Assembly (NCBI GenBank): GCA_026392045.1
Contig: JAPLCU010000036.1
Location: 1 to 41,453 of the forward strand
Direction of reading: 5' to 3'
Source: Armatimonadota bacterium
GTDB lineage: Bacteria; Armatimonadota; UBA5829
Length of the DNA stretch: 41,453 bases
The position numbers were made by a program, and so were the translations under genes. The first letter of the stretch is position 1. Every line of letters begins with the position of its first letter. Of the stretch, positions 21,986 to 41,314 are shown one piece after another. Below the pieces are notes generated by a model. It made no database searches and was not told the DNA's origin. It saw only the letters and a list, made by a program, of their open reading frames with translations.

Positions 21986-22999
21986 ATGACACAAGACGAT
22001 ACCCGCAGAGTGCTGCTGAGCCACGGAGCAGGCGGCAAGATAATGACCGAGCTCATCGAGAGCGTTTTTCTTGCTAATTATGGCTCGCAAAACGTCACAG
22101 GAGATGACAGCGCCATCGTTAACATCGGCCTGGATAAAATTGCGTTTACCACTGATTCATTTGTGGTGGATCCGATATTTTTCCCCGGGGGCGATATCGG
22201 CCGCCTGGCGGTTTGCGGCGCTGTAAATGACCTGCTGACCGCAGCCGCAAAGCCTCTCGCGCTCTCCGTGTCTTTCATAATTGAAGAAGGATTGGATATG
22301 AAGACTCTTGAGGCGATCTCTGAATCGCTTCGAGAAGCTGCTAATGAGGCGGGCGTGCAGATCGTCACGGGTGACACCAAAGTAGTTCCAAGAGGCTCGG
22401 CCGATAAGGTCTTTATCACCACGGCAGGCATCGGCATTGTGCTGAAACCGGATGTGTCCGGCTCAGCGGCGAAGCAAGGAGATAAAGTGATTCTAACTGG
22501 CAGCCTGGGTGAGCATGGCGCCGCAGTGATGCTCGCGCGGGCAAATCTGCTTGAAAATGAGAGCATAAAGAGCGACGCTGCGCCTTTGGTTGACATAGTG
22601 TTGGGCTTAATTGATGCGGGTTGCCAGGTTCATGCGATGCGCGACCCAACCCGCGGGGGCGTTGCATCGTCATTGAATGAAATAGCGCGGCAATCTGGAG
22701 TCTCTATTGAAATTGATGAGACCGCAATCCCTGTAAACCCATCAGTGGCGGCTGCATGCGAGGCCCTGGGCCTGGATGTAATGCAAGTTGCCAACGAGGG
22801 CAAGATGATTATAATCGTCTCGCCTGATGATGCCGACAGGGCGCTGGAAATTGTGCAGAGTCGTCGATACGGGAAAGATGCGGCGATAATAGGCGAAGTA
22901 GGCCCCGCCCCACCCTCTCGCGTTTTGGTGAGGACAGCTTTCGGAACAAGCCGAATACTCGATATACCCGCCGGAGAACTTTTACCGCGAATTTGTTAG
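21986..22999 (+). CDS. hypE: Hydrogenase maturation protein HypE
   Basis: Dehydrates the carbamoyl group placed by HypF on its C-terminal cysteine to a thiocyanate. The protein is 337 aa with a PurM/AIR-synthase fold: LLSHGAGGKIMTELI, GDDSAIVNIG, VCGAVNDLLTAAAKPLALS, GDTKVVPRG and MRDPTRGGVASSLNEIA. It ends in LLPRIC, so the acceptor Cys337 is intact. Its stop codon overlaps the stop of the facing beta-helix gene by 4 bases, leaving no room for a separate terminator. Confidence 0.97.
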   Translation: MTQDDTRRVLLSHGAGGKIMTELIESVFLANYGSQNVTGDDSAIVNIGLDKIAFTTDSFVVDPIFFPGGDIGRLAVCGAVNDLLTAAAKPLALSVSFIIEEGLDMKTLEAISESLREAANEAGVQIVTGDTKVVPRGSADKVFITTAGIGIVLKPDVSGSAAKQGDKVILTGSLGEHGAAVMLARANLLENESIKSDAAPLVDIVLGLIDAGCQVHAMRDPTRGGVASSLNEIARQSGVSIEIDETAIPVNPSVAAACEALGLDVMQVANEGKMIIIVSPDDADRALEIVQSRRYGKDAAIIGEVGPAPPSRVLVRTAFGTSRILDIPAGELLPRIC

Positions 23000-25900: not shown

Positions 25901-28900
25901 TCATCAGCGCCGATATCCACTGCGCTGCCTTCGGGTCGCGCTTGGCCGTCAATGTCCGTGGAGGGCATGCCTGGGGCTGAGTTGTTGCCAGCGTTTCGGC
26001 AAGGCGAATTAGGCTGAATATGAAAGACTCCGCCAACCGACACGACGATAAGTGGGTCTGTAGCGATATCGCCTGTGCTTGGCGAAAGATGAGAAGAATA
26101 GTTGTAATACGTGTTGCTATAAACACAATTGTTCTTTAGCGTAGGGACGCTATCACCTTCGGCAATACCTGAAGAATTGAATGCCACTATGTTGTTCGAT
26201 ATCGTGATCGCGTACAAGTAGATATGAATGCCGCCGCCAGCAGAGCCATAGCTATCTTTGTCACTGCTTGCAGTGTTCAAGACAATAGTATTGTTCGATA
26301 TTGAAGAATGGCTGGAATAATAGATTCCACCGCCAAAGCTAGCGTAACCTGTGTTGCTTCGTGCGCTGTTGCTGGCAACAGTGTTGTTTGATATTGTAGG
26401 CGAACCACCACTGCAGTAGATACCGCCGCCGTAGGGGCATCCATTGCCGCTGCTAGCTGTGTTTCCGGAAATAACATTGTTCGATATCATTGGCGAGCCA
26501 TTGGTACATTGTGCTCCGCCGCCGTAGCTGTAACCATTGCCGCTGCTGGCTGTGTTTCCGGAAATAACATTGTTCGATATCATTGGTGAACCGCTGGAAC
26601 AGGAGATACCACCACCGTAGCTGTAACCGTTGCTGGTAATTGCAGTGTTGCCAACAATAGTGTTGTTCAATATGGTGGGCGAGCCGCCGGAGCAGTAAAT
26701 GCCTCCGCCATAAACATATAAGCTGCCGCTTGCAGAGTTGCCGGTAATAGTATTATTGGATATCACAGGCGAAGAGTAGTAGCAATAGATGCCACCGCCG
26801 TAGCTTGCCTTACCGTTGCGAATGGTGAAACCGTCCAAAATGTTTGTAGTCCCAGCGTTGGCTGAGAATCTTACCACGCTGCCTGAGCTTTGGCCATCGA
26901 GTATTGTCTCGTTTGCATCTGGATTAATACGAGGGAATGCCGGACGATCTGCCAAACTCACTTCATCGCCCGCAAATCCACCATACAGCGAAATCCACTT
27001 CGCTACCGTGATGCGTTCATTGTATATGCCTTTCGCAACCCAAACCTGATCACCAACGCCGATGCCAGGCGTGGCGAGGGCTGCGTTTACCGTGAGTTTT
27101 GCTGTTGCCCAAGTCAATCCATCATTGGAGTCATCGCCGCTCTTGCTGACTTTGATAATACTCTGGCTGACTCTTACAATATTCGTGCCGTCGCCCCAAA
27201 CGGTTCCGTCGAACTCATCCGCGCCAATGTCTACGTGATTACCGCTGATCCTCGCCATCCTGTCAATGTCAAAGGAGCCAGCTATCACCGCCGTATCGTC
27301 TCCTGAGTCTATGCATGGTGAATTGGAAAGAATGTGTGCGCTCAACTGATCTTGAACAATCACGGGGTCTTGTGAAATATTGCCATTTGCCCCGATGGGA
27401 TATGCAAACCCGGAAAAGTTATATGCAACGTTTCCATAAACGCAGTTGTTTTGCATGATCGGTTCAGCGTTATCTGAATAGACGCCAGCATTGTTGAATG
27501 CGATGATGTTGTTTTGCAAGAGTGTACCGGGAACGGCGCAGTATACCCCCGCATTATCTGATGCGCTGTTGGATATAATTGTGTTATTTGTCAGAATTGG
27601 AACGAGGCTGGGCGCAGCTGCATAAGAGTTAGCGAAATAGACCGCGCCACCCTGTTCCGCGCTGTTGCCTCTTATCACGTTATTGATAATACGAACGCCT
27701 GAGCGGTCACAGTAGATTCCGCCTCCCTCATAAGCAGTATTTTGCGTGATTATATTGTTAGCAATTTCGGGTGAAGCGCCAACGCAGACAATTCCTCCGC
27801 CGCGTCGTGCATTGCCTTTAGTGGCAGAAGCACCGCCGCGAATAGTAAACCCATCGACCGCACTCGTGAAATGTCCGAGGAATGCTGATACAACCGTCCC
27901 CAAGCCGTCCCCATCAAGAATTGTTTGACGCAGCGACCAGTTGCGGTCGGCTTTAGAAGTCTCATTGCCTGAAAAACCGCCATAAAGATAAGCATAAGGG
28001 CGGAGCAAAACGCATTCTGTGTAGGCGCCTTGCGCGACCCAAACTTCTCCACCCGCTGCTGATGCGGCATCAACTCCAGCCTGCACCGTTAGCTTTGATT
28101 GGCCCCAACTTAAGCCGTCGTTCGCGTCATCGCCCGTTGGGCTGACACGGACTATAGCGTTAGGCCCTCCGCTCCAGGTTGTGCCGTCATATTCATCTGC
28201 GCCGATATCGACGCATTGGCCATAGGTTCGTGAATTGGAATCTATATCAACCCATTCCGGTTGAATATAAGCATCATTACCGGCGTCTATGCAAGGAGAA
28301 TCTGACAGCAAATGGAAGTTTCCGAACTGATGCGCAGCCATTTTGGGGTCCTGCGAAATATTGCCGTCTGAGCCGGTCGGGTCTGTGCATCCAGCGTAAT
28401 TGTAGCCAGTGTTGCCGTATACGCAGTTGTTGCGCATTTCTGTGGTTACAGTGTATGTAGCGCCTGTTTGGACGGACACCCCTGATGAATTGTAAGCGAT
28501 GAGATTGTTCGTCAAAATTGCTTTGCAGGATGAAATGGTTGCTGTTAAGCGTATGGCGCCATCAAGACAGGCGGAGTTGCCTACAATGGTATTGTTTGTA
28601 ATTGTTACCACACCACTGATGCAACGTATGCCGCCGCCGTCGCCCGATGACCCATTTCCATAGATGAGATTACCCACAACTGTGCTTGTGGTCAAAGTGT
28701 TGTTAGCGTCAATTTGAATTCCAGACTCTTCATTCCCACAAATCCTATTGTTTTGGATCAGCGGCGAGGATTGCATACATGATATTCCAACCGAATTATT
28801 TACGATCAAATTATTTGAAATTACAGGTGAGGAACTCACGCACTGTATCCCGCCGCGTCCACTACCCATTGCAGAATCATAGACGTAATTATCCCCATTA

Positions 28901-29319
28901 CGGATGACAAAACCATCCACCATGGTCAGGTTGCTGATATTCGCTGGTGAATAGATCACTGAAGTGGTAGAGCCTGCGCCATCCAATGTGGTAGGGTTCA
29001 CAGATGGATTGCGCTGCTCTCGGGCGCTTTCCGTGCCCGAAAACCCACCATAAAGACTTACCCTGTCCTTTAGAATGATCCTGTCGCTTGTGAAGCCGCT
29101 ATAGGTATAGACGCCCTTAGCCACCCATATCTCATCATCAGCAATAGCCGCGTTGATGGCTGCTTGCACAGTCTTCTTGGATGATTCCCATGAAAGACCA
29201 TCCGAGCTGTCATTCCCGGCAGGACTCACAAAAATGGCGCTGCAACTACACGCTGTTGCCCATAAGGTAATCCATATAGTTACTGCCAACACAATTCTTG
29301 CTTTATTAATGCCGATCAT
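22996..29319 (-). CDS. Giant exported five-module beta-helix protein
   Basis: 2107 aa. A signal peptide (residues 1-28, hydrophobic IVLAVTIWITLWATAC) may end at CSCSA or at the first Cys as a lipoprotein. Five homologous modules follow, about 28-387, 388-717, 718-1151, 1152-1475 and 1476-1902. Each opens with a VSP.GND..DGLSW..AK.TV cassette, then WVA.G.Y, LYGGF.G.E and DGFTIRNG. A right-handed parallel beta-helix (repeated GGGIYC..SSP.ISNNTI..N) follows, and the module closes with NNCVYGN, SPC.NAG and VDIGADE. Residues 1903-2107 form a different, probably OB-like C-terminal domain. Such helices often bind or cleave polysaccharides or act as adhesins; no catalytic residues can be named. The ATG follows GGAGG by 7 bases. 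It lies 50 bp downstream of the H-X9-DG gene. Confidence 0.88.
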   Translation of the reverse strand: MIGINKARIVLAVTIWITLWATACSCSAIFVSPAGNDSSDGLSWESSKKTVQAAINAAIADDEIWVAKGVYTYSGFTSDRIILKDRVSLYGGFSGTESAREQRNPSVNPTTLDGAGSTTSVIYSPANISNLTMVDGFVIRNGDNYVYDSAMGSGRGGIQCVSSSPVISNNLIVNNSVGISCMQSSPLIQNNRICGNEESGIQIDANNTLTTSTVVGNLIYGNGSSGDGGGIRCISGVVTITNNTIVGNSACLDGAIRLTATISSCKAILTNNLIAYNSSGVSVQTGATYTVTTEMRNNCVYGNTGYNYAGCTDPTGSDGNISQDPKMAAHQFGNFHLLSDSPCIDAGNDAYIQPEWVDIDSNSRTYGQCVDIGADEYDGTTWSGGPNAIVRVSPTGDDANDGLSWGQSKLTVQAGVDAASAAGGEVWVAQGAYTECVLLRPYAYLYGGFSGNETSKADRNWSLRQTILDGDGLGTVVSAFLGHFTSAVDGFTIRGGASATKGNARRGGGIVCVGASPEIANNIITQNTAYEGGGIYCDRSGVRIINNVIRGNSAEQGGAVYFANSYAAAPSLVPILTNNTIISNSASDNAGVYCAVPGTLLQNNIIAFNNAGVYSDNAEPIMQNNCVYGNVAYNFSGFAYPIGANGNISQDPVIVQDQLSAHILSNSPCIDSGDDTAVIAGSFDIDRMARISGNHVDIGADEFDGTVWGDGTNIVRVSQSIIKVSKSGDDSNDGLTWATAKLTVNAALATPGIGVGDQVWVAKGIYNERITVAKWISLYGGFAGDEVSLADRPAFPRINPDANETILDGQSSGSVVRFSANAGTTNILDGFTIRNGKASYGGGIYCYYSSPVISNNTITGNSASGSLYVYGGGIYCSGGSPTILNNTIVGNTAITSNGYSYGGGISCSSGSPMISNNVISGNTASSGNGYSYGGGAQCTNGSPMISNNVISGNTASSGNGCPYGGGIYCSGGSPTISNNTVASNSARSNTGYASFGGGIYYSSHSSISNNTIVLNTASSDKDSYGSAGGGIHIYLYAITISNNIVAFNSSGIAEGDSVPTLKNNCVYSNTYYNYSSHLSPSTGDIATDPLIVVSVGGVFHIQPNSPCRNAGNNSAPGMPSTDIDGQARPEGSAVDIGADESYGETWSFPENYAIHVSLNGNDNSLGLTWDTAKRTVTAGVNACVSGMEVWVAAGTYLENVRLRSGVAVYGGFAGTEVSRGERNWTANKTILDGNQSGSVVTSSYTSAVATTRIDGFTIRNGKAIKYGGGIYCYYSSLTIANNTITGNTVGGTSSQVYGGGICCIYGSPTISNNTITGNSANSSSFAYGGGIYCESTSSTISNNTIVGNTLSGSYCLGGGIECSSSSSTISNNIVAFNTSGIYGVVPTLQNNCVYGNTSYNYSGVSPGTGDISVDPLIVKSAGGVYHIQPTSPCRNAGYNSAPGMPSMDIDGQARLEGNAVDIGADESYGETWNPVVIYVAPNGNDSNNGLSWSLAKKTVQGALNASVISMEIWVAAGTYTENIALRDGVALYGGFAGTETSKGERNWTTNLTILDGNQSGSVVTIPTITTASTGIDGFTIRNGKTTTYGGGIYCSGGSPAISNNTITSNTASSQGGGIYCSTGTPVISNNTIVSNSGGGICCSGSSPAISNNTIASNSGGGIYCSSSSSPTVSNNTIVSNSSSYGGGINCGDSSATISNNTITGNTAITYGGGIYCVAGMATISGNKISGNTASSQGGGIYCSTGTICNNIITCNTASINGGGIFCYSSRPVTISNNTITDNAANTNGGGIFTASSLPAISNNIVAFNSSGIYKNTGTPTLRNNCVYGNTSSNYSGIPPGTGDISADPMFVDRINGNYHLKAVSPCINAGWNSAPGLPLTDMDGQKRIQGLSVDIGADEWWPGIFDVKKNDVNVGIELSGGIVSAAFSDCFYIESDNRACGIRVEKANHGLVVGDRADVSGNVAVNNSGELCIIASVASRNGSGTVTPLTLNNDSLGGGTFGLQDGVWGWEYVKKERVFQMANGLNNIGLLIKTWGKVIERDANSPAMWFKIDDGSLNPVKCILPDGVTLAPAVSYVAVTGISSCENIGGNLHRLLRVRTQSDIISH
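23614..29238 (-). repeat. Five tandem coding modules in the beta-helix gene
   Basis: Module boundaries on the DNA, in coding order: 29238-28159, 28158-27169, 27168-25867, 25866-24895 and 24894-23614. They share the opening and closing cassettes but differ in the number of helix coils. Modules 3, 4 and 5 are closest to one another (SPCRNAG...APGMPS.DIDGQAR and GETW in 3 and 4), suggesting recent duplication of that part. Confidence 0.8.
26442..26586 (-). repeat. Near-identical 52-bp units inside module 3
   Basis: 26442-26493 and 26535-26586 match at 51 of 52 bases and are 93 bp apart. They encode two successive coils reading ISNNVISGNTASSGNG. Such little divergence between neighbours suggests recent slippage or recombination, i.e. 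a coil-number polymorphism. Confidence 0.8.
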
Positions 29320-29369: not shown

Positions 29370-30272
29370 CTAAGGTGTTATCTGAATAGCTTTGTGGATG
29401 CCCTGATAAGCTGGAGCCGTATTTATGTAATTATAGAACGCTGAGTCTGTATAATCCCAGTTGCTGTTGGCCTGCGCAATTCCAACCGGTGTCTTGAAGA
29501 ATTCTCTCGCATTGTAGAGCTTGATATGCCCATCGGCAAACAGGATGTGCGAGCCATTGCCATGTATCTTCACAGTTGGGTCTGTAACCGGTGAAGTTGA
29601 ACCGTCCTTTATGGCAACGTCCGGCCTCATATGGAATGGCGCCTGGATCTGGGAAGTGGAATCGATTGTCGGCGCTGTAGCCACGCCTGTAGTGGGCATA
29701 TCAGAGCCGTTTACCCTAGGTACTGCACACGTGACAGAAGCAACCAATCTATCTGTCTCGCGCACGATCATCATTTTTGATCTGTTTCTAATGATGCTTT
29801 CCGGTTTTTCTAAGAGAGTGAAATTAAATACATAAGTAACCGCAGCGGAAGCTTTTTCAGTTGCGTTTACGCCAGCCTGCGCAAAGAGAGCGGCCGGGCA
29901 TTTCCAGACGCTGGAGGTATCTTCCTTGGCCACGATGGCTTCCATATAGTTGTAAAGACCTTCTACCCATGTAGTACCATAATGGAACTTGTAAGCTTTG
30001 CCGGTAGCAATATCTGTCCCAACCCAGGACAACCGACAACTGGGAACCAAATTGCCGGTAGCGACGCGATTGGTTGGATAGGTATCGTCCCAATCCGCAA
30101 GGTACATTTTGATAGAGTTACCGATCTTCTTGAGATTAGCCTGGCAATTCGATACAGCGCTCGCCCCCTTTGTGATAGCAATTACCGGGGACAAAATGAA
30201 TGCCGTAACTGTCATTACTACTACTACATAAAAGATTTCCTTGATAGACATACGTTTTTTTGTATGAGGCAT
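29370..30272 (-). CDS. H-X9-DG prepilin-like protein, degenerate signal
   Basis: 300 aa. The C-terminal half carries the H-X9-DG motif, HGNGSHILFADG, and SNCQANLKKIGNSIKMYLADWDDTYPTN matches the DUF1559/type II pseudopilin-like proteins abundant in Planctomycetes, Verrucomicrobia and Armatimonadota. The N-terminal helix (IFYVVVVMTVTAFILSPVIAI) stands where the usual G-FTLIELLVVIAIIAILAA lies. However, the Gly before the cleavage site and the Glu at +5 are absent (RMSIKEIF), so prepilin peptidase may not process it. ATG 30272 is chosen over an upstream start because AAAGGAG lies about 7 bases before it. It probably shares a transcript with the beta-helix gene. Confidence 0.82.
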   Translation of the reverse strand: MPHTKKRMSIKEIFYVVVVMTVTAFILSPVIAITKGASAVSNCQANLKKIGNSIKMYLADWDDTYPTNRVATGNLVPSCRLSWVGTDIATGKAYKFHYGTTWVEGLYNYMEAIVAKEDTSSVWKCPAALFAQAGVNATEKASAAVTYVFNFTLLEKPESIIRNRSKMMIVRETDRLVASVTCAVPRVNGSDMPTTGVATAPTIDSTSQIQAPFHMRPDVAIKDGSTSPVTDPTVKIHGNGSHILFADGHIKLYNAREFFKTPVGIAQANSNWDYTDSAFYNYINTAPAYQGIHKAIQITP

Positions 30273-30684
30273 GTTCTTCTCCTTTGATCTGAAAAGTTGA
30301 GCAGACACATTTGTGCTTTCTATAATATTGCTGGGATATTGTATTGACTATCAGCAATCCCACGCTAAACAGAACAAGTAAACGTCTACAAAACACTACG
30401 CACTATCCGAGATTTATGCAATCGCCCAAGTGGCGCCATCTTCGCTGTCGCTGCCATCCACGAGCAATAATGCTGATTTACAATTTTTTATTTCTTTTCC
30501 ATATCCCCTCAAGAACCGCACGGGCTTCTATGTGCAATATATCCTCAATATACCTGTTTGTCAAGTCACTTTTCTGCAATTACTGATCGATTCGCGAGTA
30601 TTTCCGAAGACCAATTCAAAAATGCCATTGACGGCTGCCTGCCATATCGTGCTAAAATATAAGCGTGATGGGTAGACATTTTCT
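30273..30684. other. Divergent intergenic region, no gene seen
   Basis: 412 bp, AT-rich, between the leftward H-X9-DG gene and the rightward transporter. It contains an ATTGCTG/CAGCAAT inverted pair (30327-30333, 30352-30358). On the plus strand, TTGACG (30628-30633) and TAAAAT (30653-30658) have a long 19-bp spacer, a weak candidate promoter for the transporter. I looked for a manganese (yybP-ykoY) riboswitch and saw no match. Confidence 0.5.
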
Positions 30685-31578
30685 ATGACTAAAATATTGA
30701 CTGAAGCTCTTATAGATACGCTTAGAATGGCGCCGTTTCTGTTTGTGATTTATTGCCTGGTTGCATGGATCGAGCAGAAATATGGTAATTCTATTCAGGA
30801 GAGAATACGCTATGCCGCTAAGGCAGGCCCTCTGATCGGTTCGGTATTCGGTTCTGTGCCTCAATGCGGTTTTTCGGTGCTTGCAAGCGCGATGTATACC
30901 CGCAGGCTTATCACCATTGGCACTCTTTTGGCGGTATTCCTTTCCACCTCAGACGAAGCTATTCCGGTTATACTTGCGCAGCCGGATAAGATCAAATTGA
31001 TCATCCCGCTGCTTCTTACCAAGATCGTCATCGGTATTCTTGGGGGGTATGGTGTGGATTTAGCGCTGAGAAGCTACCTTAGACCTCATGCCGACGAAGC
31101 TCATGATCACGATGCCGAGATAAACAGCCGAGGTTGCTGCGAACATGATATCATCCACAGCGACAAGCGGCTTCAACTGCTGATCCATCCGCTGGTGCAC
31201 ACGGCCAAAATCTGCGCGTTTTTGTTTGTGGTAACTGCGGCGATAAACTACGGCATAGAAGCTTTAGGCCCGGATAATCTTAAGAATCTCTTGCTGAAAA
31301 ACTCAGTGTTGCAGCCGATCATTACTGCATTTTTTGGGATTATCCCGAACTGCGCCGCTTCGGTTGCCATTACCGATGTCTTTCTCAAAGGCGGGATAAG
31401 CTTTGGTTCAGCTGTCTCCGGGCTATGCGCAAGCGGAGGGCTGGGAATACTTGTCCTCTTCAAAGAAAACGGCAACCTGCGCGACACCATCCGTGTGATC
31501 GGATTGCTACTGTTCGTGAGCATAATTGCCGGAATCGTTATTCAATCCATTGGCTGGAATCCTATCAAACTGCCCTAG
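30685..31578 (+). CDS. Putative ten-TM heavy-metal exporter (ArsP_2-like)
   Basis: A 297-aa polytopic inner-membrane protein. Two homologous halves each carry an intramembrane Cys motif: GSVFGSVPQCGFSVLASAMY in the first and FFGIIPNCAASVAITDVFL in the second, the pattern of the putative manganese/heavy-metal exporters (ArsP_2 family). A cytoplasmic or periplasmic loop between them is rich in His and Asp (HADEAHDHDAE, then RGCCEHDIIH), a likely metal-binding site. The metal cannot be read from sequence. The start is ATG 30685 with only a weak ribosome site. The last 14 bases overlap the end of the convergent membrane-protein gene. Confidence 0.8.
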   Translation: MTKILTEALIDTLRMAPFLFVIYCLVAWIEQKYGNSIQERIRYAAKAGPLIGSVFGSVPQCGFSVLASAMYTRRLITIGTLLAVFLSTSDEAIPVILAQPDKIKLIIPLLLTKIVIGILGGYGVDLALRSYLRPHADEAHDHDAEINSRGCCEHDIIHSDKRLQLLIHPLVHTAKICAFLFVVTAAINYGIEALGPDNLKNLLLKNSVLQPIITAFFGIIPNCAASVAITDVFLKGGISFGSAVSGLCASGGLGILVLFKENGNLRDTIRVIGLLLFVSIIAGIVIQSIGWNPIKLP

Positions 31579-33130
31579 CGCTACGACGCAACCTGATCAC
31601 CGAAGTTATAACAATCAACACCGCCATTACTGCAAGAGTCCAAAGCATAACCGCCACTTTCTGCTCGCGGGTGAGGTCAATTGTGCTCGCGAGGAACCAG
31701 GGCGCGCATGTAACAACAAACACCTGCACTCCAAGAGCAACGTCCGGCGCCCCCATTTGCTTGCCGAAGAACGGCGCGGCAGGTATGAGAAAGAAGAGAC
31801 CCGCCGTGAACCCCAGCATAAGTCCAACTACAGCCTCGAATCGCCAAAAGTAAGCAGCAGCAAATACAATGGCAATCGCAGCCGCTACAACCGCAGCGCC
31901 TCTGGCAACACCACCGATTGGGCGAGCAGCATCCTTCGCCCAACCATCCGAAATCGAAGCCATTATGAGTGACAAAACTGCGCCCAATATAAGGCCGATT
32001 AACACATACGACTCGAATATATGCACCGCAGCGCCTGTACCACCTGTGCTCTCAGCAAAAACTCTTACAAGTCCAATTGCAGCAAGCGCTGCCACTATTC
32101 CGGCGCCGCCATTGGCAAGCTCAAGTTCAGGGCCGCCGCTCTTAGCGCGGTCTATCAACATATAGACAAAAGGCAAAGATGCGAGGCCGCCAATGGAGGC
32201 AAGAGCGACGCCATAACCTCCGAGCCATCTCATGGAAATCGCAGCGCAGGCTATCGCGAGCAACACGCAAAGCGCTCCTGCTTCATTTGCTCCAATAAAC
32301 CCCGCACCGACGCGCAAACCTCCAGACGCAGCGCTGAGCAAGTATACTGCCAGCACTGTGACACACCCCGTAATTACACAAAGACCAGCCTCAGGCTCAT
32401 TGGCAATGACTTCGCCGAGCAAGCCAACAAGGCGCCACACGCCCACAACAATTAAAAGAATACCGAGTATTGTCTGTAACACACCAGGCTTGCAGCACGC
32501 AATTACCAGCGAAGCAATGATGGCAACCAACAGCGCCATAGCGCAGGCGTCGATTGCAAACAAAGTGCCCATGGCAGCGCCTTCAGCATATTTGTAAATA
32601 CCAATTGCAACCGCACCCGCGAGAACCATAGAAGTTAATGCAGCGCTTCGCGGGCCCAGCAACCCTCCATTTGGCCTTCCATAGTAGAACACGGCGACTG
32701 CGAACCAAGCGCCCAATGCCAAGACCAGAAGATACAACATAGGCGCTTCCCTGAAGTAATTGCGTAGGAAAGCAACCTCAATTAGAGCAAGCCCAACGCC
32801 GAAGAAAGCATCTGAAGAAGCAGCGAAACCCGATCCAACTCGCCAGCGCGAGTAAAATGCCGCAGCAACAACGGCAAGCCCGCCAATAAGGAACATTAAT
32901 CCAAACCGCCAACTGAGGTCTTTGGGCTGAAACAGCAGACCTATAAGCAGCAGTCCGACAAGTAGCAGCGCTACTATTGTCAATATTCGAGTAAGAAAAC
33001 TGCCGCGGCCTTCATCTTCGGCGCTTTCAGATGGTTCTCGCAGTCTCAGCATCACCGAGTATGCTATAGCGAGAATTCCAACCGCATACGGTCCAAACCA
33101 TGCAAGATACGAAATTAGTCCACTTTTCAT
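31565..33130 (-). CDS. Polytopic membrane protein of unknown function
   Basis: 521 aa with about 14 predicted membrane helices and few charged loops; I recognise no family. Features are an N-terminal helix (SYLAWFGPYAVGILAIAYSVML), a short acidic loop (EPSESAEDEGRG), Gly/Ala-rich helices throughout and a basic C-terminus (RLRRSARAV). Alanine and glycine content is notably high. It is the last gene of the envelope cluster: its ATG overlaps the VanW stop by 4 bases (33127-33130), so it is very likely made together with VanW and the macroglobulin. It might be an exporter or a membrane anchor for the cluster, but that is a guess. It overlaps the convergent transporter by 14 bases. Confidence 0.8.
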   Translation of the reverse strand: MKSGLISYLAWFGPYAVGILAIAYSVMLRLREPSESAEDEGRGSFLTRILTIVALLLVGLLLIGLLFQPKDLSWRFGLMFLIGGLAVVAAAFYSRWRVGSGFAASSDAFFGVGLALIEVAFLRNYFREAPMLYLLVLALGAWFAVAVFYYGRPNGGLLGPRSAALTSMVLAGAVAIGIYKYAEGAAMGTLFAIDACAMALLVAIIASLVIACCKPGVLQTILGILLIVVGVWRLVGLLGEVIANEPEAGLCVITGCVTVLAVYLLSAASGGLRVGAGFIGANEAGALCVLLAIACAAISMRWLGGYGVALASIGGLASLPFVYMLIDRAKSGGPELELANGGAGIVAALAAIGLVRVFAESTGGTGAAVHIFESYVLIGLILGAVLSLIMASISDGWAKDAARPIGGVARGAAVVAAAIAIVFAAAYFWRFEAVVGLMLGFTAGLFFLIPAAPFFGKQMGAPDVALGVQVFVVTCAPWFLASTIDLTREQKVAVMLWTLAVMAVLIVITSVIRLRRSARAV

Positions 33131-33855
33131 CTTTTCACCTCATTGTTATCGGCATACGCCGGAATCGAATATAAGTCATTGCTGATTAAATCACGCCGAA
33201 AGCTCCCGTCGGCAAGCGGCATCAACCTATATGTCAAAACAGTCTCGCCGCCAATAGTTGAACGCCCGCGAGACAGGATTTGAGTAATTATTTGAATATC
33301 AGATTTCTCTCGTGATTTGCCCAAAATGCTGATTGCCAGTCTAGCGCTCGTCGCGGACGCCTTAATGCGAATTGTATTGCCGGTTGTGTTGACGAATTTC
33401 AGATCAGCGATACCAAACGCAGTAGTCGCATCCCTGCCGGGAGGAACCGAGCTAACTCGACGGCTGTGAGCATGGCGCTCGGTAACTCTTAAACCCGCCA
33501 AGAGAGCAGCATTGTAAAGCGTTGAAGATACCTGGCAGACTCCCCCGCCCCACTCCGGCCGCAGTTCACCCGCAACAATAGTTGGCGCGCGCTCAAACCC
33601 CTGCTCCATCCCGCATAAACCCACCGCATTGTAAAAAGAAAACTCCTCACCCGGTCTGATAAGCATTCCGTCGATCTTAGAAGCCGCGCGAAGAATGTTG
33701 TGCCTTTGCTGAGGCGTGCGAGGCGCCAGATCCGTCGAGAAAGATGCAATCTTGCTAACGCAAGCTGAATCCCACAACGCCATGACCGCAATGCCAGCGC
33801 CAGCAATTATGATAACCACCAATATAGCGAACACGGTCTTCACTGTGCGCATCAT
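33127..33855 (-). CDS. VanW family protein
   Basis: 242 aa. One N-terminal TM helix (VFAILVVIIIAGAGIAVMAL) is followed by an extracytoplasmic VanW domain: FSTDLAPRTPQQRHNI, GMLIRPGEEFSFYNAVG, the hallmark EWGGGVCQVSSTLYNAALLAGL and ERHAHSRRVSSVPPGRDA. VanW occurs in some vancomycin-resistance operons and widely in other bacteria; its biochemical role is unresolved, though links to peptidoglycan are repeatedly seen. The family often carries peptidoglycan-binding or G5 domains, and none is present here. The ATG at 33855 overlaps the macroglobulin stop by 4 bases. Confidence 0.93.
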   Translation of the reverse strand: MMRTVKTVFAILVVIIIAGAGIAVMALWDSACVSKIASFSTDLAPRTPQQRHNILRAASKIDGMLIRPGEEFSFYNAVGLCGMEQGFERAPTIVAGELRPEWGGGVCQVSSTLYNAALLAGLRVTERHAHSRRVSSVPPGRDATTAFGIADLKFVNTTGNTIRIKASATSARLAISILGKSREKSDIQIITQILSRGRSTIGGETVLTYRLMPLADGSFRRDLISNDLYSIPAYADNNEVKR

Positions 33856-36800
33856 CTAACTATCAGCCTCCCCTCGGCGGAGTGCGCATAAATATCAGGC
33901 TCATAAGAACCCTGCGCAAACGCGGGCATCACATGAAATGCGCCCTTTATCTCCGGCCTGAAGTCGTATTCGATCGTGCGCTTGCCATTGTATACGTAAT
34001 CCACGAGGAACGTGACGCGGTTATCATAAACGGTCTCGCCTCCCCACCAATAATCCCATTCGTAATAATCAGACGACTGTCTCGATCTATCAACAACTTC
34101 GCAGCCCGAAGGCAGCATGTCTTCTACCGTCAAATAATAGAAATCTTTTGGTGATCTAAGCGTAAGCCGACATCGGATAAGCTCGCCAACAGTTGCCGTG
34201 CCGCCAAGCGGCTCGGGCTTGTAAATCAACCCTTCTTTGGGGTCTTTTACCAGCCTGAGCCGGAAATATTCTCGGCTGATCGACACTTTTCCGGATTTTG
34301 CGGGCACATCTTCAATGGTCGAATAATACTTGAGACTCGCCCAATAGAACAAATCACCGGGGCCGTTTTTTACAATTCTGACGCTGTTTCGTCCCTTTTG
34401 GATGTATTTAGCCCCAATATTTACGCGCACTTCGGGCTTATGCAGAGTATCCGGTCCCATTGTGACCTTGCGCATCAGTTTGCCATTCACATAGATTTGC
34501 GCAGTGTAGTTTGGCGTTAGGGGTTTATGCACTTTCAGATAGTCAGCCAGCGCATACACGACCGATGCAGTGTCGTAATTGGCATTATAACGGTCGCCTC
34601 GCCGTCGATCCACAAGCCAGCGCACTCCCTTTGCTATGCATGGATTCTCCGGGTCCACCGCCAAAAGCGCGCGCACGGCATAGGCGGTGGTTTCATACTC
34701 ATTGCACGAATAAAAACCCCATGTGAATGATTCCGGCCAGGAACAATGCGTCAGTGTCTGCACAGCCCCCTTGATTAGCTTAGGAACGAGCATGCGAGCC
34801 TTTTCGCGCTGCCCCATCTCATTGAGCGAGAGTATCATCAGCGCAATGCTATAATTTTGAAGTTTAGGGTCTTTCAATACGGGTTGCACCCACTCAGGCT
34901 TGGCCTTTCCAGCAAGTGTGAGGACATATATGACAGTCGCGCGCTTGCCGAGATCGGTCACGTTGGGTAAACCGTCCAGAGTGGCTTGAACGCCCTTGTT
35001 GAGCACTTCTTCGTCGATTTCAAACCCCGCCTGCTTTGAGCGAATCAGGCCATAGACCACATACGCGGTCATCCACTCATCTTTCTGGCCATATTCAGAC
35101 CAGCTCCAACCGCCGCCAGGAAGTTGCCACGCATACACAGTTTTCAGATCATGCTTGACCATTTTCTGCAGCGTTGCGTATTGTTCGGGAGTTGCTGCTC
35201 CAAGGTCTTTCAACGCCTTATACATCACCACATTTGGTAGAAGAATATCCATGATTCCCTCTGGGGAATTCATTTCGTAGTCTTTCAAGGCCTGAGTTAT
35301 TCCAAGCGCAGCCCCGGCAATGCTGGGCGACAGGCCCATATCAATGCTGCTCGCGTTGGTTATGATATCGCCTGGGACATTCAACGCGAACTCAATCGAA
35401 GTTTTGGTTTGCCCGGCGTTCATAACATACTCAGGCACTCCGTGAGGCAACACAGGCGCTTCCATCTGCATCGCGTCCTGATCGCCCTGACCCTGAGCGT
35501 AGACCGTGAGAGTTGCAGCGCCGGGTTTGGTGGGTTTAACATTCCATTCAACCCTTGTCAAGCTATTTGGGGTGATTGTAACCGTGCGAGAATTTTCGCC
35601 AACGATGTCAATCCCGCTCGCGTCCAGCCAAACTCGCACATTTTGGCTGCGCTCAGTGTAGTTATGAACAACTGCGCTCAGGATGAGGTCATCACGTTGA
35701 CGGAAGAACCGAGGCGTCTGCAGCCTTACGAGTATATTCTTGGTAACAATCACCAACTGCTTCGCGCTGCCCACGGCGGTTCCCTCTGTTACAGCACGAG
35801 CAGTCGCGCGCCAAGTCGTAAGATTATCCGGCATCTTAAATGATACAGTCGCGACGCCGTTTTTATTCGTGACTATGCTCGGATTCCAATAAGCGGTGTC
35901 GGGGAAGTATTTACGCACCTTGCCCTGGAACTTATCCTCGCCGCCATAATAATCATCGTAAAAGCTGGCTGCGGTCCGCACATTGTTGCCCACAGGGCCG
36001 TGGAAGAACCTCTTGATATCAGGAGTCGTATCTTCGCGAATAGCGTAAAGGCTCTCGTCTACCACGCCCAGCGAAACCTCTGCAGGCACTCCCTTGCCAG
36101 CCTTGTTTGTGGTAGTGATAGTGTAGGCAGCTGTCTCACCAGGCAGATAACGCTTTTTGCTTGCTTCAATTTTCACATTCAAGAAGTTGTTGCTCTGCGA
36201 GATTGGAATAGGAGCCTCAGCAGTGGCAAGCTTTTTGCCGTTTACCAGAGTGGCGCAAACATAAACATTTGGAACATAATCTTGCGCCAGCGGAACCTCT
36301 ATGACCTTTGTGGAAGAAGTCATGTGGATCACACGCTGGGAAAATAGCCGACGACCCTCTACTGTGAACAGTATATAGCAGTCTTTTATTGGGCTGGAGA
36401 TCATAACGCGTGCGGTCTCGCCGAGCTTGTAGAGTTTCTTATCAGCCGTTACCTCCAGCGCCGGTGGCTGGTAGTTCTCACGCTCGTATTCATCACTCGC
36501 AACGTAGAACCAGTTCTCACACTTTATCTGATTGCCCATGCTGTCCGTTGCGAGGATCTCGATTATGTATTCACTGTTTTCTTTAGGAGTGAATGAAAAC
36601 TCCCCGCGACCATCAGAATTTAGTTGAACCTGGGATGGAGTCACCAAATCGCGCAGGTTCTTATTGTAATTGATCATCTTATAAACCGAAACCGACGCCC
36701 GAATATTCGGCACAGGTTTACGGTCGTAATCGACTGCAAATATGCTAGTCTTAACCTGTTGGCCAGGTTTATAGATGTAGTTGTCAATCTGAGCGCTTAT

Positions 36801-38513
36801 AAAAAATAGCCCTGGGGTGACCATAACGCCGCCACTGATATCTATGCTGCGGCCGCCGGCATCTGTAACCGTTGCCTCCACGGTGTAGCGTTCCTCTTCA
36901 TCAGCATGCTTTGTGGGTATTCGAAGTTTAAGCACACCATTTTCATCCGTCTGACCCTCTCCTTCCAGCACAACTTCGCCATATCCGCCGTAATAATCTC
37001 CGTCACCCTCTTGGTCGGAGTAGAATTCATCATAGAAGCTGGAGTCTGAGTCCCCATCAGGATAGTAGTAGAAGTAATCCTGCGCCTTGTAGACCGTATA
37101 AGTGACCTTCGCCCCTGCGACAGCGCCGCCGAAGTAGTATGAAGCCTCTACATTTGCCTCAACCTCGTTTCCTCCAACATAACGCGGCTTTGTAAAGCTG
37201 ACAGAGGCCTTGAACTCGGGCTTACGATATTCCTCCACACGGAACAGGCGCTCGTAATTCTCGCCCTTATATTCAGCGCTAATCGTGTAATATCCGGGCC
37301 TGGTTTCCGGGTCCATTACGATCTCGCCATTAAATGAGCCGAATCGATTTGTCTGCAAGCTGAGATTTTTGACGGTGTTGCCGTCTGGATCGTCAATCTT
37401 CACAGGGATGCTCTGATTTGCGACCGGCATAAACCTGCCAGGCGAGGAATCCCTGAGAATGCCTTTGAAGTGCACCGTGTGGCCAGGGCGATAGATGGGC
37501 CTGTCTGTGTATATGTAACATTTAGCCGTTTCGCCTACGTCAATGTCATAGCTGTTAGCGATTGCATAGGAGTCTCCAGAGCTTCCGAGCACGGTAAGCG
37601 AATCTTTAGGCAAAGCTTCCGTAATAAAAAGGCTGTCAGAATCGGTCTTGCCCATAATTGGCAGCTTGCTGTGTGAAGTAAAGAACTCAAGATTAACATC
37701 CTTCAATGGCTTTTTCTCAGTAAAGCTGGTGGCATAAACAAGAATTTTACCAGGTGCGCGCTTGGTGACTAATGCGAGATCAGTAATCAGCGTCTTAAAG
37801 AGCTTTTCGGTGGTCTCCAATTGAACATCAACCAGATATCCGCCTTTGGCTTTTATCTTCAAAATTGCGTTGCGTTGGAAGTATCCCTCAGAGTCCGTGC
37901 GAACCTTTACGATTCGCTCATATACCGGCGCTCCGATATTTTTCCATTTGACGAGTGAATCATCGTAAGGTTCTTGCTTGCCGCCCCGCGCGCGAACTCG
38001 CTTGGCAAAATCAAAGCTATAAACACGCACTCGAAGCTGTGTAGCTGCTTTGCGTGAGTAACCATTTAGAGAAATAAACACCCTTTCGCCGGGAGTAAAG
38101 ATGGACGAAATGCTTCCGTAAATTTGAGGCTGCCTCGGAGTCATTTGAATATCATTCAAAGTTGTGGTTTTGCCTTCTCTGACAACAACTGGCTTTGAAT
38201 AATCTTCGATATAATCGGTCTCGTAACCACGAGCAGATGCATAGCCCGAATACTTGCCAACTGGAACATCTGTGATGACATAATTCCCCTGCTTGTCAGT
38301 CACGCCGTAGATAGTCGGCCGATATTCGTTGTGGAGAGTCAATGAGATTCTGGCTCGAGCCAAAGGCTGCTTGCGCTCGTTCAGGACACGCCCTTTGACA
38401 GTGCCCGTGGGAGTTTCCTGAGCAATAGTCAACCCGAACATCAGGGCTATCAGCCCCACAATCAACACAGTTAAGGCTGTAATCTTGGTGATGGATTTTG
38501 CATTACTGGTCAT
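33852..38513 (-). CDS. Alpha-2-macroglobulin-like protein without thioester
   Basis: 1553 aa with an N-terminal signal peptide or anchor (ALTVLIVGLIALMFGLTIA, to about 31). A carboxypeptidase-regulatory-like domain (about 37-105) is followed by macroglobulin domains (YIYTDRPIYRPGHTVHFKG, about 335), the A2M core (WNPSIVTNKNGVATVSFKMP, about 880) and an alpha/alpha thioester domain (about 1063-1330) ending with macroglobulin-like strands. Typical bacterial A2Ms trap periplasmic proteases through a Cys-Gln thioester (YPYGC.EQ). Here the aligned segment is DYEMNSPEGIMD, with Ser1083 for Cys and Gly for Gln, so no thioester can form. A Tyr/Asp/Ser-rich acidic insert occupies about 477-512. The ATG overlaps the upstream AMMECR1 stop by 4 bases. 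Confidence 0.92.
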   Translation of the reverse strand: MTSNAKSITKITALTVLIVGLIALMFGLTIAQETPTGTVKGRVLNERKQPLARARISLTLHNEYRPTIYGVTDKQGNYVITDVPVGKYSGYASARGYETDYIEDYSKPVVVREGKTTTLNDIQMTPRQPQIYGSISSIFTPGERVFISLNGYSRKAATQLRVRVYSFDFAKRVRARGGKQEPYDDSLVKWKNIGAPVYERIVKVRTDSEGYFQRNAILKIKAKGGYLVDVQLETTEKLFKTLITDLALVTKRAPGKILVYATSFTEKKPLKDVNLEFFTSHSKLPIMGKTDSDSLFITEALPKDSLTVLGSSGDSYAIANSYDIDVGETAKCYIYTDRPIYRPGHTVHFKGILRDSSPGRFMPVANQSIPVKIDDPDGNTVKNLSLQTNRFGSFNGEIVMDPETRPGYYTISAEYKGENYERLFRVEEYRKPEFKASVSFTKPRYVGGNEVEANVEASYYFGGAVAGAKVTYTVYKAQDYFYYYPDGDSDSSFYDEFYSDQEGDGDYYGGYGEVVLEGEGQTDENGVLKLRIPTKHADEEERYTVEATVTDAGGRSIDISGGVMVTPGLFFISAQIDNYIYKPGQQVKTSIFAVDYDRKPVPNIRASVSVYKMINYNKNLRDLVTPSQVQLNSDGRGEFSFTPKENSEYIIEILATDSMGNQIKCENWFYVASDEYERENYQPPALEVTADKKLYKLGETARVMISSPIKDCYILFTVEGRRLFSQRVIHMTSSTKVIEVPLAQDYVPNVYVCATLVNGKKLATAEAPIPISQSNNFLNVKIEASKKRYLPGETAAYTITTTNKAGKGVPAEVSLGVVDESLYAIREDTTPDIKRFFHGPVGNNVRTAASFYDDYYGGEDKFQGKVRKYFPDTAYWNPSIVTNKNGVATVSFKMPDNLTTWRATARAVTEGTAVGSAKQLVIVTKNILVRLQTPRFFRQRDDLILSAVVHNYTERSQNVRVWLDASGIDIVGENSRTVTITPNSLTRVEWNVKPTKPGAATLTVYAQGQGDQDAMQMEAPVLPHGVPEYVMNAGQTKTSIEFALNVPGDIITNASSIDMGLSPSIAGAALGITQALKDYEMNSPEGIMDILLPNVVMYKALKDLGAATPEQYATLQKMVKHDLKTVYAWQLPGGGWSWSEYGQKDEWMTAYVVYGLIRSKQAGFEIDEEVLNKGVQATLDGLPNVTDLGKRATVIYVLTLAGKAKPEWVQPVLKDPKLQNYSIALMILSLNEMGQREKARMLVPKLIKGAVQTLTHCSWPESFTWGFYSCNEYETTAYAVRALLAVDPENPCIAKGVRWLVDRRRGDRYNANYDTASVVYALADYLKVHKPLTPNYTAQIYVNGKLMRKVTMGPDTLHKPEVRVNIGAKYIQKGRNSVRIVKNGPGDLFYWASLKYYSTIEDVPAKSGKVSISREYFRLRLVKDPKEGLIYKPEPLGGTATVGELIRCRLTLRSPKDFYYLTVEDMLPSGCEVVDRSRQSSDYYEWDYWWGGETVYDNRVTFLVDYVYNGKRTIEYDFRPEIKGAFHVMPAFAQGSYEPDIYAHSAEGRLIVR

Positions 38514-39151
38514 GGTGATTTCCTCCGCGCTTTTGGCGCCTCTTTGAGTTCATGAAGCGCCACGGTCTCGAAAACAAACATCTCGCACGGCTCTCCACTT
38601 TTTAATCGCGCCTGTCTCCTTGCCTCAGCAACGCGCCATGAGTTTGTCTTTGCCTCTCCCGGCAATATCACGCCAGTTCCAGCCACTCCACGCACAAGCA
38701 GACCATAAGAGATGGGCGGATATTGTTGAGGGTCTTTGACGCGTTTCATTGGACCAACGATTGAAACAGTGAATGACAGCTTGTCAAGCTCATTCAAACG
38801 AATAGGCCGATATCTAATGTCTGAAGTGGCAGCCCCGATGGCAGCCCGAATAATTTCGTCTTTAAGACACTTGGTCGCAGGCTCAAAGGCGCCTTTGCAG
38901 CCTCGGCGGCGTTCATTCTTGGCTATAGTCACAAAAACAGCAGCTTTTTGATTGAATATTGCGGGCAATTTCTGCGGAATGGGAGTAAGCTTACCTGTGG
39001 TCAAATAGGTTCGGACTGTTTCACGCGCCAATTTGACCGCTGGCTTGCACAAGGTGTTTCGATGCTGCGCGAAATCGTCAAGAGGCGACGCAATCGCGCA
39101 TGAGATCGCAAGAGAAAGGCAAATAATTGTGCAAAACGACAAGAATCGCAA
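38510..39151 (-). CDS. Secreted AMMECR1-domain protein
   Basis: 213 aa. A clear N-terminal signal peptide (FLSFCTIICLSLAISCAIAS, cleavage near 22) precedes an AMMECR1 domain: LARETVRTYL, AAVFVTIAKNERRRGCKGAFEP (the family's FVT...LRGCIG pattern), IIRAAIGAATSDIRYRPIRLNELDKLSFTVSIVGP and ISYGLLVRG. AMMECR1 proteins are normally cytoplasmic and are linked to AmrS and Memo, so export is unusual. The catalytic role of the domain is unsettled. TTG 39151 is chosen because GGAG lies 9 bases upstream. Its stop overlaps the macroglobulin ATG, and SpoIID-like gene 39225 ends 73 bases upstream. Confidence 0.85.
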   Translation of the reverse strand: MRFLSFCTIICLSLAISCAIASPLDDFAQHRNTLCKPAVKLARETVRTYLTTGKLTPIPQKLPAIFNQKAAVFVTIAKNERRRGCKGAFEPATKCLKDEIIRAAIGAATSDIRYRPIRLNELDKLSFTVSIVGPMKRVKDPQQYPPISYGLLVRGVAGTGVILPGEAKTNSWRVAEARRQARLKSGEPCEMFVFETVALHELKEAPKARRKSP

Positions 39152-39224
39152 TGGAATCGCTCCATATCAGCAGTAAGACTTATCAAGCCTTCATTTGATA
39201 TTAACGCACCACCAAGCTATTAAG

Positions 39225-40379
39225 TTACTGCATGTCGGATATTTTTTCTACAGCAACCTTGCTTATTCCTGCACCAGAATAATAAAAAGCCAATATTTGT
39301 TGATAATTCCATCCAGACTTTGCGCGGGCGTATGCTCCCCATTGGCAAAGACCGATACCGTGCCCCAGTCCGTGACCGCAAAATGTGTATGTGTCACCGC
39401 TTTTCGTCAGGCGAAACCTGGCGCTTTTCACGCTCCCCCAGCCCAGTTTACGGCAGATTATATTCCAGAAAACGTAGGCGTCGATCTCACGCGAGCGACT
39501 TCCTGCAATTTCCATATACAATGCTCGGTCTGATGCATCATTTTTAATGACACGTAACCCCTTTATTTGTTTGCCGACATTAGTTCGTGAATCCGAGGCC
39601 AGGGCTGAGGCCAGGTCTGATGCAGTTACGGTGAAGTTCCAATCATAGTGCGGCGAGGCTTTGCAGGCTGTCGCGCTATTTAATATGTCTTTCCTTATTC
39701 TTAAATACGGCGCATTTCCGAGCGATTGTGAAGCATAAGAAGAAGCGCTTACACCCCCGCAGCAACTGCCATAAAGCGCCTGAATTGGTTTTTTGCGATA
39801 TGTTAAAATTTGGCCGGACGTTTGGCGCACGGCGGCATTAGTTTCAGAAGTCTCGGTCTGGATCCCCCTATATACCTGGCAGTGAGTGGCATCGCAAATA
39901 TCGAAACCATCGCGTTTGTGGTCTTCATAACGGGTCAAAGCCAGAGTGCGGGCAACAACCGCCTGCGCTTTCAATGCTTCAATCGGCCACTCTTTGCGCA
40001 TTTCGTTCGCGACAACTCCGCGCACATAGTCCTCAAGACTAACTTCGTTTACAATCAGCAAATTGCCATCGCGAGCGCTGAATAGCAGCTTGCCTGTGTA
40101 ACGATGGTCTTTATCCCAGGCGCGAAGTCTAATTGCAGACGTGTTTTCCAGCGTCAGAGATTTCGCTTTCTTATGATTGCCCGCATACGCGATATCCAGC
40201 ATTGATCCATGCGATGAAATAGTAAAATCCTTCGAATGAACAGCCGACGGGGCGCCGGATTCGCATATAATGCGGACGCTGCCAGGATGTGTCGTGCGCA
40301 GAATGCCCACCCGCAAAACAGGTTCGCCGTAGCATTCACAGCCCATCAAAAAGAAAATAGCCGCAATAATCAGCCTCAA
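39225..40379 (-). CDS. SpoIID/LytB-domain lytic transglycosylase
   Basis: 384 aa, exported, probably as a lipoprotein (FFLMGC at 9-14 fits a lipobox loosely). The SpoIID/LytB catalytic core contains VSLEDYVRGVVANEM (Glu126 is the candidate acid), WPIEALKAQAVVARTLAL, YRGIQTETSETNAAVRQTSGQILTY, YGSCCGGVSA and the zinc-binding GHGLGHGIGLCQWGAYA near the C-terminus. In Bacillus, SpoIID cleaves denuded glycan strands during engulfment. Here there is no sporulation context, and homologues without spores act in wall remodelling. The start is TTG 40379 with AAGGAG 8 bases upstream, overlapping the transpeptidase stop by 4 bases. Confidence 0.92.
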   Translation of the reverse strand: MRLIIAAIFFLMGCECYGEPVLRVGILRTTHPGSVRIICESGAPSAVHSKDFTISSHGSMLDIAYAGNHKKAKSLTLENTSAIRLRAWDKDHRYTGKLLFSARDGNLLIVNEVSLEDYVRGVVANEMRKEWPIEALKAQAVVARTLALTRYEDHKRDGFDICDATHCQVYRGIQTETSETNAAVRQTSGQILTYRKKPIQALYGSCCGGVSASSYASQSLGNAPYLRIRKDILNSATACKASPHYDWNFTVTASDLASALASDSRTNVGKQIKGLRVIKNDASDRALYMEIAGSRSREIDAYVFWNIICRKLGWGSVKSARFRLTKSGDTYTFCGHGLGHGIGLCQWGAYARAKSGWNYQQILAFYYSGAGISKVAVEKISDMQ

Positions 40380-41314
40380 CGCTTATTCTCCTTGCCAAAG
40401 TAAGCGCTGAAAATGCGCCGTGCGATGGGTGCGGCGGTATCATAACCATGACCTCGATTAACAAATACCACAAGGACAATCTCAGGCTTCTTATATGGCG
40501 CAAACCCAACAAACCAGCCATTTCGTTTGTCTGAATCGTCTGCCGCTTCCGGGCTTCCCGTCTTACCAGCGATTTCTACTCCGCCGACGGCCGCGTTCTT
40601 GCATGTGCCTGAAATTACCGCGAGCCTCATAGCGCTGCGAATCACGGCAAGATTCCTGCGGGTCTTCGAGTTGTCTATTCCAGCAACATGTGCGTTTCCG
40701 TTGGCGATGCGGCGCACCATCTCGGCGGCTTCCAAAAGAGTTATCTTAAAACCATTGGCCTGTCCAACGGCCATCTGCGCCGTTTGCGCAGGATGTATGA
40801 CCGGCGATGCCGGCAAATGCCCCACAGCCTGAACTCCTTTGTAGCCGGGAACCTTGCGATCAAGAGCGAATACACGCGCATATTTCAGCAAACGTTTAGG
40901 CCCCAATTTACGGCCAAGTCCATAGAAAGTCACATTGCACGATTGAGCTATTGCTTCTGGAAAGCTAATCGTGCCGTGGCCGTTCGGGGTGGTGCAATAG
41001 AGCAGGACATCGCCGATGGGCTGATTTCCTGAGCACCTAAACTTCGCGCCCGCAGAAGTTATCCCTTCCTGCAAGGCAGCAAAGCCGGTCACAAGTTTGA
41101 AGACAGAACCGGGAGGATGGAGCTGGATGGCTGAAACTTTGGGGTTTACGATTGCGAGGATTTTGCCATCGCTCACCCGCATAATCACGGCGCCGCCCGA
41201 GTGATTTCCGAAAGCAGTTTTTGCACTCTCTTGCAGCGCGCGTGTATCTGCACCGGCGTCTATTGATATCATAGATACTAGCAGGACAGCTAACGCCCAC
41301 ATAACTTGGCGCAC
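40376..41314 (-). CDS. Minimal penicillin-binding transpeptidase
   Basis: 312 aa, essentially only a transpeptidase domain after a signal peptide (VMWALAVLLVSMISIDAGA). The active-site motifs are intact: SxxK as PPGSVFK (Ser70, Lys73), SxN as QSCN (Ser125, Asn127) and KTG as GKTGSPEA (251-253). The family is usually 450-700 aa with a membrane anchor and a dimerisation domain; this one has neither, so it may be periplasmic and rely on partners. GTG 41314 follows GAGGTGAT at about 8 bases. It is the first gene of the envelope cluster. Confidence 0.92.
   Translation of the reverse strand: MRQVMWALAVLLVSMISIDAGADTRALQESAKTAFGNHSGGAVIMRVSDGKILAIVNPKVSAIQLHPPGSVFKLVTGFAALQEGITSAGAKFRCSGNQPIGDVLLYCTTPNGHGTISFPEAIAQSCNVTFYGLGRKLGPKRLLKYARVFALDRKVPGYKGVQAVGHLPASPVIHPAQTAQMAVGQANGFKITLLEAAEMVRRIANGNAHVAGIDNSKTRRNLAVIRSAMRLAVISGTCKNAAVGGVEIAGKTGSPEAADDSDKRNGWFVGFAPYKKPEIVLVVFVNRGHGYDTAAPIARRIFSAYFGKENKR

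Follow-up and report, generated by a model that had tools for sequence, protein, structure and literature searches.

We analysed a stretch of 41,453 nucleotides from an Armatimonadota bacterium, hereafter the window, which is one entire contig (JAPLCU010000036.1) of a genome assembly of 206 contigs and 98% completeness (GCA_026392045.1). Six genes on its minus strand, spanning positions 31565-41314, encode in the order 5' to 3' a minimal penicillin-binding protein (PBP), a SpoIID-type lytic transglycosylase, an AMMECR1-domain protein, a bacterial alpha-2-macroglobulin (A2M), a VanW-domain protein and a 521 amino acid membrane protein, which we call MEM. Judging from sequence and from analogy with the mag operon of Pseudomonas aeruginosa, we lean slightly towards reading this cluster as a macroglobulin-centred cell-envelope module, which would trap proteases and be coupled to the cutting and re-cross-linking of the wall. 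The original prediction, made on the window sequence, had spoken of a wall-remodelling or wall-guarding complex. This is still the best reading, and the gene order recurs in relatives, but what had been said of the partners needed correction.

Organization of the cluster

An open reading frame (ORF) check recovered the six genes, the four 4-base overlaps and the 73-bp gap exactly as first described. The features are as follows.

40376..41314, minus strand: PBP, a minimal transpeptidase of 312 amino acids with a signal-like N-terminus, without transglycosylase domain
39225..40379, minus strand: SpoIID/LytB-type lytic transglycosylase, 384 amino acids; its TTG start overlaps the PBP stop by 4 bp
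39160..39163, minus strand: GGAG, resembling a Shine-Dalgarno sequence, 8 nt upstream of the AMMECR1 TTG, read directly
38510..39151, minus strand: secreted AMMECR1-domain protein, 213 amino acids; TTG start followed by a hydrophobic, signal-like stretch
33852..38513, minus strand: bacterial A2M, 1553 amino acids, with CarboxypepD_reg, MG2, bait region, A2M, thioester-domain remnant and bMG10
33127..33855, minus strand: VanW-domain protein of the L,D-transpeptidase type, 242 amino acids, with an N-terminal transmembrane anchor
31565..33130, minus strand: MEM, 521 amino acids, polytopic, with a predicted membrane-pyrophosphatase fold lacking the catalytic motifs checked

Stop and start codons overlap by 4 bp at positions 40376-40379, 38510-38513, 33852-33855 and 33127-33130, while SpoIID and AMMECR1 are separated by the 73-bp gap (39152-39224). 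Comparable junctions were found elsewhere: A2M and VanW overlap by exactly 4 bp in 20 of 39 loci, and the MEM-A2M and AMMECR1-A2M gaps are mostly below 60 bp across loci. Because the same junctions recur in relatives, this tight spacing exceeds chance. Two modules are joined in the cluster, MEM-A2M-VanW and PBP-SpoIID-AMMECR1. The PBP start lies only 139 bp from the contig end, so that one or more genes further upstream may be missing and the operon may extend in that direction. Scans for promoters (13 predicted, against 10.8 expected from shuffled sequence, standard deviation 3.7) and terminators (16 against 11.2, standard deviation 4.3) gave counts near expectation, and transcript boundaries therefore cannot be drawn from them.

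Recurrence of the gene order

We surveyed the A2M-VanW junction in 60 relatives. The A2M type of the window is carried by 33 Armatimonadota genomes, its own included, and VanW lies directly after A2M in 26 of them, most commonly with a 4-bp overlap. Longer portions of the cluster were also detected (surveyed genomes are labelled G, compared loci L). The order SpoIID-AMMECR1-A2M-VanW is present in G037, where PBP is on a separate contig, and in L151, which is cut by a contig end. In four Melainabacteria-type loci (L167, L185, L186 and L203), a divergent SpoIID-PBP arm faces AMMECR1-A2M, followed by VanW in L167, L186 and L203; on the short contig of L188, PBP faces AMMECR1-A2M. Loci from Acidobacteria and a spirochaete (L158, L184 and L217) show another arrangement, with DUF1175 upstream of A2M and SpoIID nearby; PBP adjoins SpoIID in L158 and L217, and DUF2135 is present in L217. 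Pieces and large parts of the order thus occur in related and in distant genomes, and the prediction withstood its own refuting condition, a gene order absent from every relative. Since neighbours from a single phylum mostly have a common ancestry, the adjacency counts within the phylum are not independent events, and the recurrence across phyla in differing arrangements is stronger evidence than these counts.

An ORF of about 485 codons, convergent to VanW, was observed at the corresponding position in three of the Melainabacteria-type loci (L186:13529-14974, L203:13624-15105 and L167:13760-15226); for the copy in L186, Pfam gave no match.

The macroglobulin and its thioester

The thioester of the window A2M is lost, MNSPEG (around residue 1081) replacing the YPYGCTEQ of its relatives. 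Nearly all of these relatives, which were not selected by this motif, keep the CxEQ thioester. It was also present in 104 of 109 members of a separate contig set, a proportion biased by the fact that this set was partly found through the CxEQ pattern. The label "thioester-less" therefore holds for the window protein but not as a trait of its clade. In an A2M tree built with FastTree, L149 and L151 group with the window (support 98); these three belong to a set of 41 rows, mostly from Armatimonadota, from which the Melainabacteria group is placed apart. Branches are long and the deep branching was not relied on. This position of the Melainabacteria A2M indicates that the gene content is common to distant A2M lineages, with differing arrangements. 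A separate A2M clade (L123, L125 and L128, three genomes of one genus) is without VanW or MEM and is flanked by other multi-transmembrane proteins. A literature search on Armatimonadota macroglobulins found no relevant paper.

The loss of the thioester, the presence of three wall enzymes for one A2M and the N-terminal CarboxypepD_reg domain could also be accommodated by a growth or shape module, in which PBP, SpoIID and VanW would produce a wall layer of a specialised kind, with A2M serving as a structural or S-layer-like scaffold instead of trapping proteases; a model for an anammox S-layer glycoprotein is even matched weakly (E 8e-5), well short of its cut-off. We consider this unlikely. The CxEQ thioester is retained by most relatives sharing this gene order, and it fits a trap but not a scaffold; the A2M also has a bait-region domain, and MagD of P. 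aeruginosa, itself a thioester-less A2M, traps protease (PMC5764988). With its thioester lost, the window A2M would thus trap non-covalently, as MagD does.

The wall enzymes

The PBP matches a single Pfam domain, Transpeptidase (PF00905, E 5.8e-35), and its motifs SVFK, SCN and KTG are intact. SpoIID (Pfam E 9.7e-33) keeps the conserved glutamate, within VANEM. VanW matches its Pfam family (E 2.9e-45; 153 bits for a curated cut-off of 27), and Cys107 and His130 are invariant in 32 aligned sequences. Its AlphaFold2 model is confident (predicted local distance difference test, pLDDT, 91.7) and had no fold match in the PDB, in agreement with the statement that VanW domains are not superimposable on YkuD enzymes (PMC12729407). 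The function of VanW had been regarded as unsettled at the outset. This is outdated, as VanW domains of Clostridioides difficile are L,D-transpeptidases (PMC12729407, PMC11986978). Like LdtCd4 and LdtCd5 of that species, the window protein is membrane anchored and has a VanW domain with catalytic cysteine and histidine; it differs from them in having no match to the peptidoglycan-binding PG4 domain, in adjoining A2M and in coming from a phylum outside Bacillota.

MEM, a recurrent neighbour of A2M

A Pfam scan of MEM gave no match, and the protein had been taken for an orphan. This was rejected: the position upstream of A2M in relatives is usually occupied by a protein of 450-620 amino acids with many hydrophobic segments, and these proteins are homologous to one another. 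A profile built from them without the window found the window MEM at 1e-37, and a MEM-family profile matched none of 11 unrelated polytopic proteins. MEM is present in 65 of 151 genomes of the phylum, in 56 of which it lies at most 1.5 kb from A2M; among these 56, it is upstream on the same strand in 53, downstream on the opposite strand in two, and downstream on the same strand only in the window. Where MEM is not adjacent, it and the A2M hits are on different contigs, and most of the assemblies concerned are fragmented. MEM is therefore a standard neighbour of A2M in Armatimonadota, and its placement in the window is unusual.

The AlphaFold2 model of MEM (pLDDT 83.5, predicted template modelling score 0.87) was compared with known structures by Foldseek. 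Below E 1e-3, only membrane-integral pyrophosphatases were retrieved; they numbered 34 chains, the best at E 9e-9, with TM-scores reaching 0.70, and the first unrelated structure followed at E 0.07. Nothing was found at E 1e-3 in a viral structure library. The MEM profile also matched that of a pyrophosphatase family, at 96.2% and along 433 columns. Generic hydrophobicity was rejected as the source of this similarity, since 11 other polytopic proteins and the reversed MEM alignment all remained below 5% probability. Of 20 pyrophosphatases, 19 contain the motifs DVGAD, GADLVGK and DNVGDNVGD; none of 28 MEM proteins does, and no conserved acidic column was detected in the MEM family at the threshold used. 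Taken together, sequence and model suggest that MEM probably has the fold of a pyrophosphatase but not its activity. It has 15-16 helices, as in the 16-helix fold of the H_PPase family (PF03030), but is shorter (521 versus about 700 amino acids) and without the tested catalytic aspartate and lysine motifs, and a true pyrophosphatase is encoded separately in the source genome, on contig C82.

A secreted AMMECR1 protein

AMMECR1 of the window (Pfam E 5.4e-32) contains the GCxG cysteine, which is conserved in every AMMECR1 protein aligned. This feature is shared with protein A of the AmmeMemoRadiSam system. In contrast to the latter, the window protein has a signal-like N-terminus, is set in a wall-enzyme cluster and scores 91.4 bits against the corresponding NCBIfam model, below the cut-off of 99; no Memo or radical SAM neighbour was found among the cluster genes. 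Most of the AMMECR1 proteins inspected have a hydrophobic, signal-like N-terminus, although start codons were assigned mechanically and the N-terminus is uncertain in several cases. The initial description could give AMMECR1 no place in such a set. It does have a recurrent one: in 16 loci besides the window, from several phyla, it immediately precedes A2M, and in three more it adjoins PBP-SpoIID. A search of a literature collection for a link between AMMECR1 or SpoIID and a macroglobulin found no relevant paper.

A proposed guard-and-mend model and its alternatives

In the model that we propose, A2M would act in the periplasm as protease trap and sentinel. SpoIID would trim glycan strands, allowing a breach to be rebuilt, and VanW and PBP would re-cross-link the peptidoglycan, VanW as L,D-transpeptidase forming 3-3 cross-links and PBP as D,D-transpeptidase forming 4-3 cross-links. 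MEM would most likely anchor or regulate the complex at the inner membrane, by analogy with MagB, which holds MagD there (PMC5764988), and the secreted AMMECR1 would probably bind or modify A2M or the wall. In the window lineage, the MEM-A2M-VanW unit is joined to the PBP-SpoIID-AMMECR1 unit.

Several observations weigh against this model. The two modules are about 1.47 Mb apart in the single-contig genome G019, so that their linkage is not obligatory, and six genomes of the same family (G001, G002, G004, G005, G007 and G009) have no A2M match at E <= 1e-60. Certain VanW proteins showed no L,D-transpeptidase activity (PMC12729407, PMC11986978). Finally, the window MEM sequence by itself did not match pyrophosphatases (1.7%), so that the fold assignment rests on the family profile and the structure.

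The PBP-SpoIID-AMMECR1 triad occurs apart from A2M not only in G019 but also in G021 and in the fragmentary G025, all class relatives. The two modules might then be functionally separate operons that are adjacent by chance, MEM-A2M-VanW serving envelope defence and PBP-SpoIID-AMMECR1 something else. We find this quite unlikely, given that the modules are joined or facing in the window, L151, G037 and the Melainabacteria-type loci, that AMMECR1 alone adjoins A2M in further lineages, and that YfaQ of Escherichia coli, encoded beside an A2M, carries PBP-like and SpoIID parts (see below). An anti-predator or anti-competitor system directed against secreted effectors, rather than general repair, is favoured by the reported co-expression of the mag operon with type VI secretion operons (PMC5764988) but appears improbable, as the cluster-flanking genes examined included none identified as serving secretion, immunity or another form of defence, and it overlaps the guard-and-repair model, differing only in the threat.

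Other features of the window

An arsenic efflux permease gene (30685-31578, plus strand; NF037962, E 2e-79) is convergent with MEM, the stop regions overlapping by 14 bp. Further on, the minus strand encodes a 312 amino acid protein with a pseudopilin-like N-terminus (29370-30308; weak DUF1559/SBP_bac_10 match, E 0.0026) and a 2107 amino acid secreted protein with abundant NNTI-type repeats (22996-29319), which from its translation appears right-handed beta-helix-like. No repeats were found near the PBP-side contig end; at the opposite end, positions 8-53 contain a 21-nt repeat (GCAAAGGGAAAATGTCCCCTT) in two copies.

Comparison with known systems

Among known systems, the mag/yfa operon (mag in P. 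aeruginosa, yfa in E. coli) comes closest; it contains a type II A2M. The E. coli operon yfaA-yfaT-yfaS-yfaQ-yfaP encodes DUF2138, DUF1175, A2M, DUF2300 and DUF2135, respectively; YfaS, a thioester-less A2M, is annotated as a pseudogene in MG1655. YfaQ matched Pfam SpoIID at E 7e-6, above the cut-off, and in profile comparison it matched the SpoIID family at 96.5% and the minimal PBP family at 88.5%. The SxxK motif is kept (SLWK), while SxN and KTG are degenerate (SCG and KTW). YfaQ therefore resembles a partly degenerate fusion of a PBP with SpoIID, the PBP half resting on the 88.5% profile match and the motif alignment. The DUF2300 C-terminus of YfaQ (gene at L227:3149-4798) holds HEYLH, a possible zinc-peptidase motif, and a separate gene near A2M in L217 has a weak Peptidase_MA_2 match. 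A literature search on YfaQ with YfaS found no relevant paper, and the mag operon paper does not mention SpoIID (PMC5764988).

The window cluster resembles mag/yfa in several respects: an A2M without CXEQ thioester, an operon in which several genes encode secreted partners, a membrane protein encoded next to A2M (MagB anchors MagD, which binds MagA, MagB and MagF; PMC5764988), and PBP-like and SpoIID parts, fused in YfaQ but encoded in the window by two separate genes with intact motifs. It differs in that DUF1175, DUF2135 and DUF2138 were not found by Pfam in the six genes, VanW, a secreted AMMECR1 and a membrane protein of predicted pyrophosphatase fold being present instead, and in that close relatives of the window A2M retain the thioester. 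AMMECR1, VanW and MEM were each considered as remote forms of YfaT, YfaP or YfaA and rejected, as no profile match was obtained.

The A2M-PBP1C (pbpC) pair of Proteobacteria, a type I system, had been named at the outset as the known partnership of A2M. Mag/yfa is nearer, because YfaQ carries both PBP-like and SpoIID parts. The pbpC pair does share with the window an A2M adjoining a peptidoglycan cross-linking enzyme, and the hypothesis of trapping plus repair. However, the window A2M copy is without the CXEQ thioester, it is accompanied by a minimal D,D-transpeptidase, a VanW protein of the L,D-transpeptidase type and SpoIID, and no PBP1C with transglycosylase and transpeptidase domains was found (score 34 against the NF051885 PbpC model, cut-off 900). 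Joint action of an A2M and a wall-building enzyme was proposed earlier for A2M and PBP1C, as cited in PMC5764988; the novelty here lies in which partners are involved and how widely they are distributed.

This neighbourhood bears on the purpose of bacterial macroglobulins and on the reason for their proximity to cell-wall enzymes. It ties A2M to the newly recognised L,D-transpeptidases of the VanW type and, in several phyla, to a PBP-SpoIID pair, suggests an identity for YfaQ, and provides a genomic context for a pyrophosphatase-fold family without catalytic motifs and for extracytoplasmic AMMECR1 proteins. We tentatively suggest, with rather less assurance than for the module itself, that a macroglobulin system of several phyla couples protease sensing to 3-3 and 4-3 cross-linking via VanW, PBP and SpoIID; MEM, derived from the pyrophosphatase fold, and extracytoplasmic AMMECR1 would, on the same tentative footing, be parts not described before in a macroglobulin role, and mag/yfa would be the proteobacterial branch, in which PBP and SpoIID are fused. 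That parts of the set recur in several phyla, and can be recognised in E. coli, suggests that a system for guarding and mending the wall is widespread, though little known.

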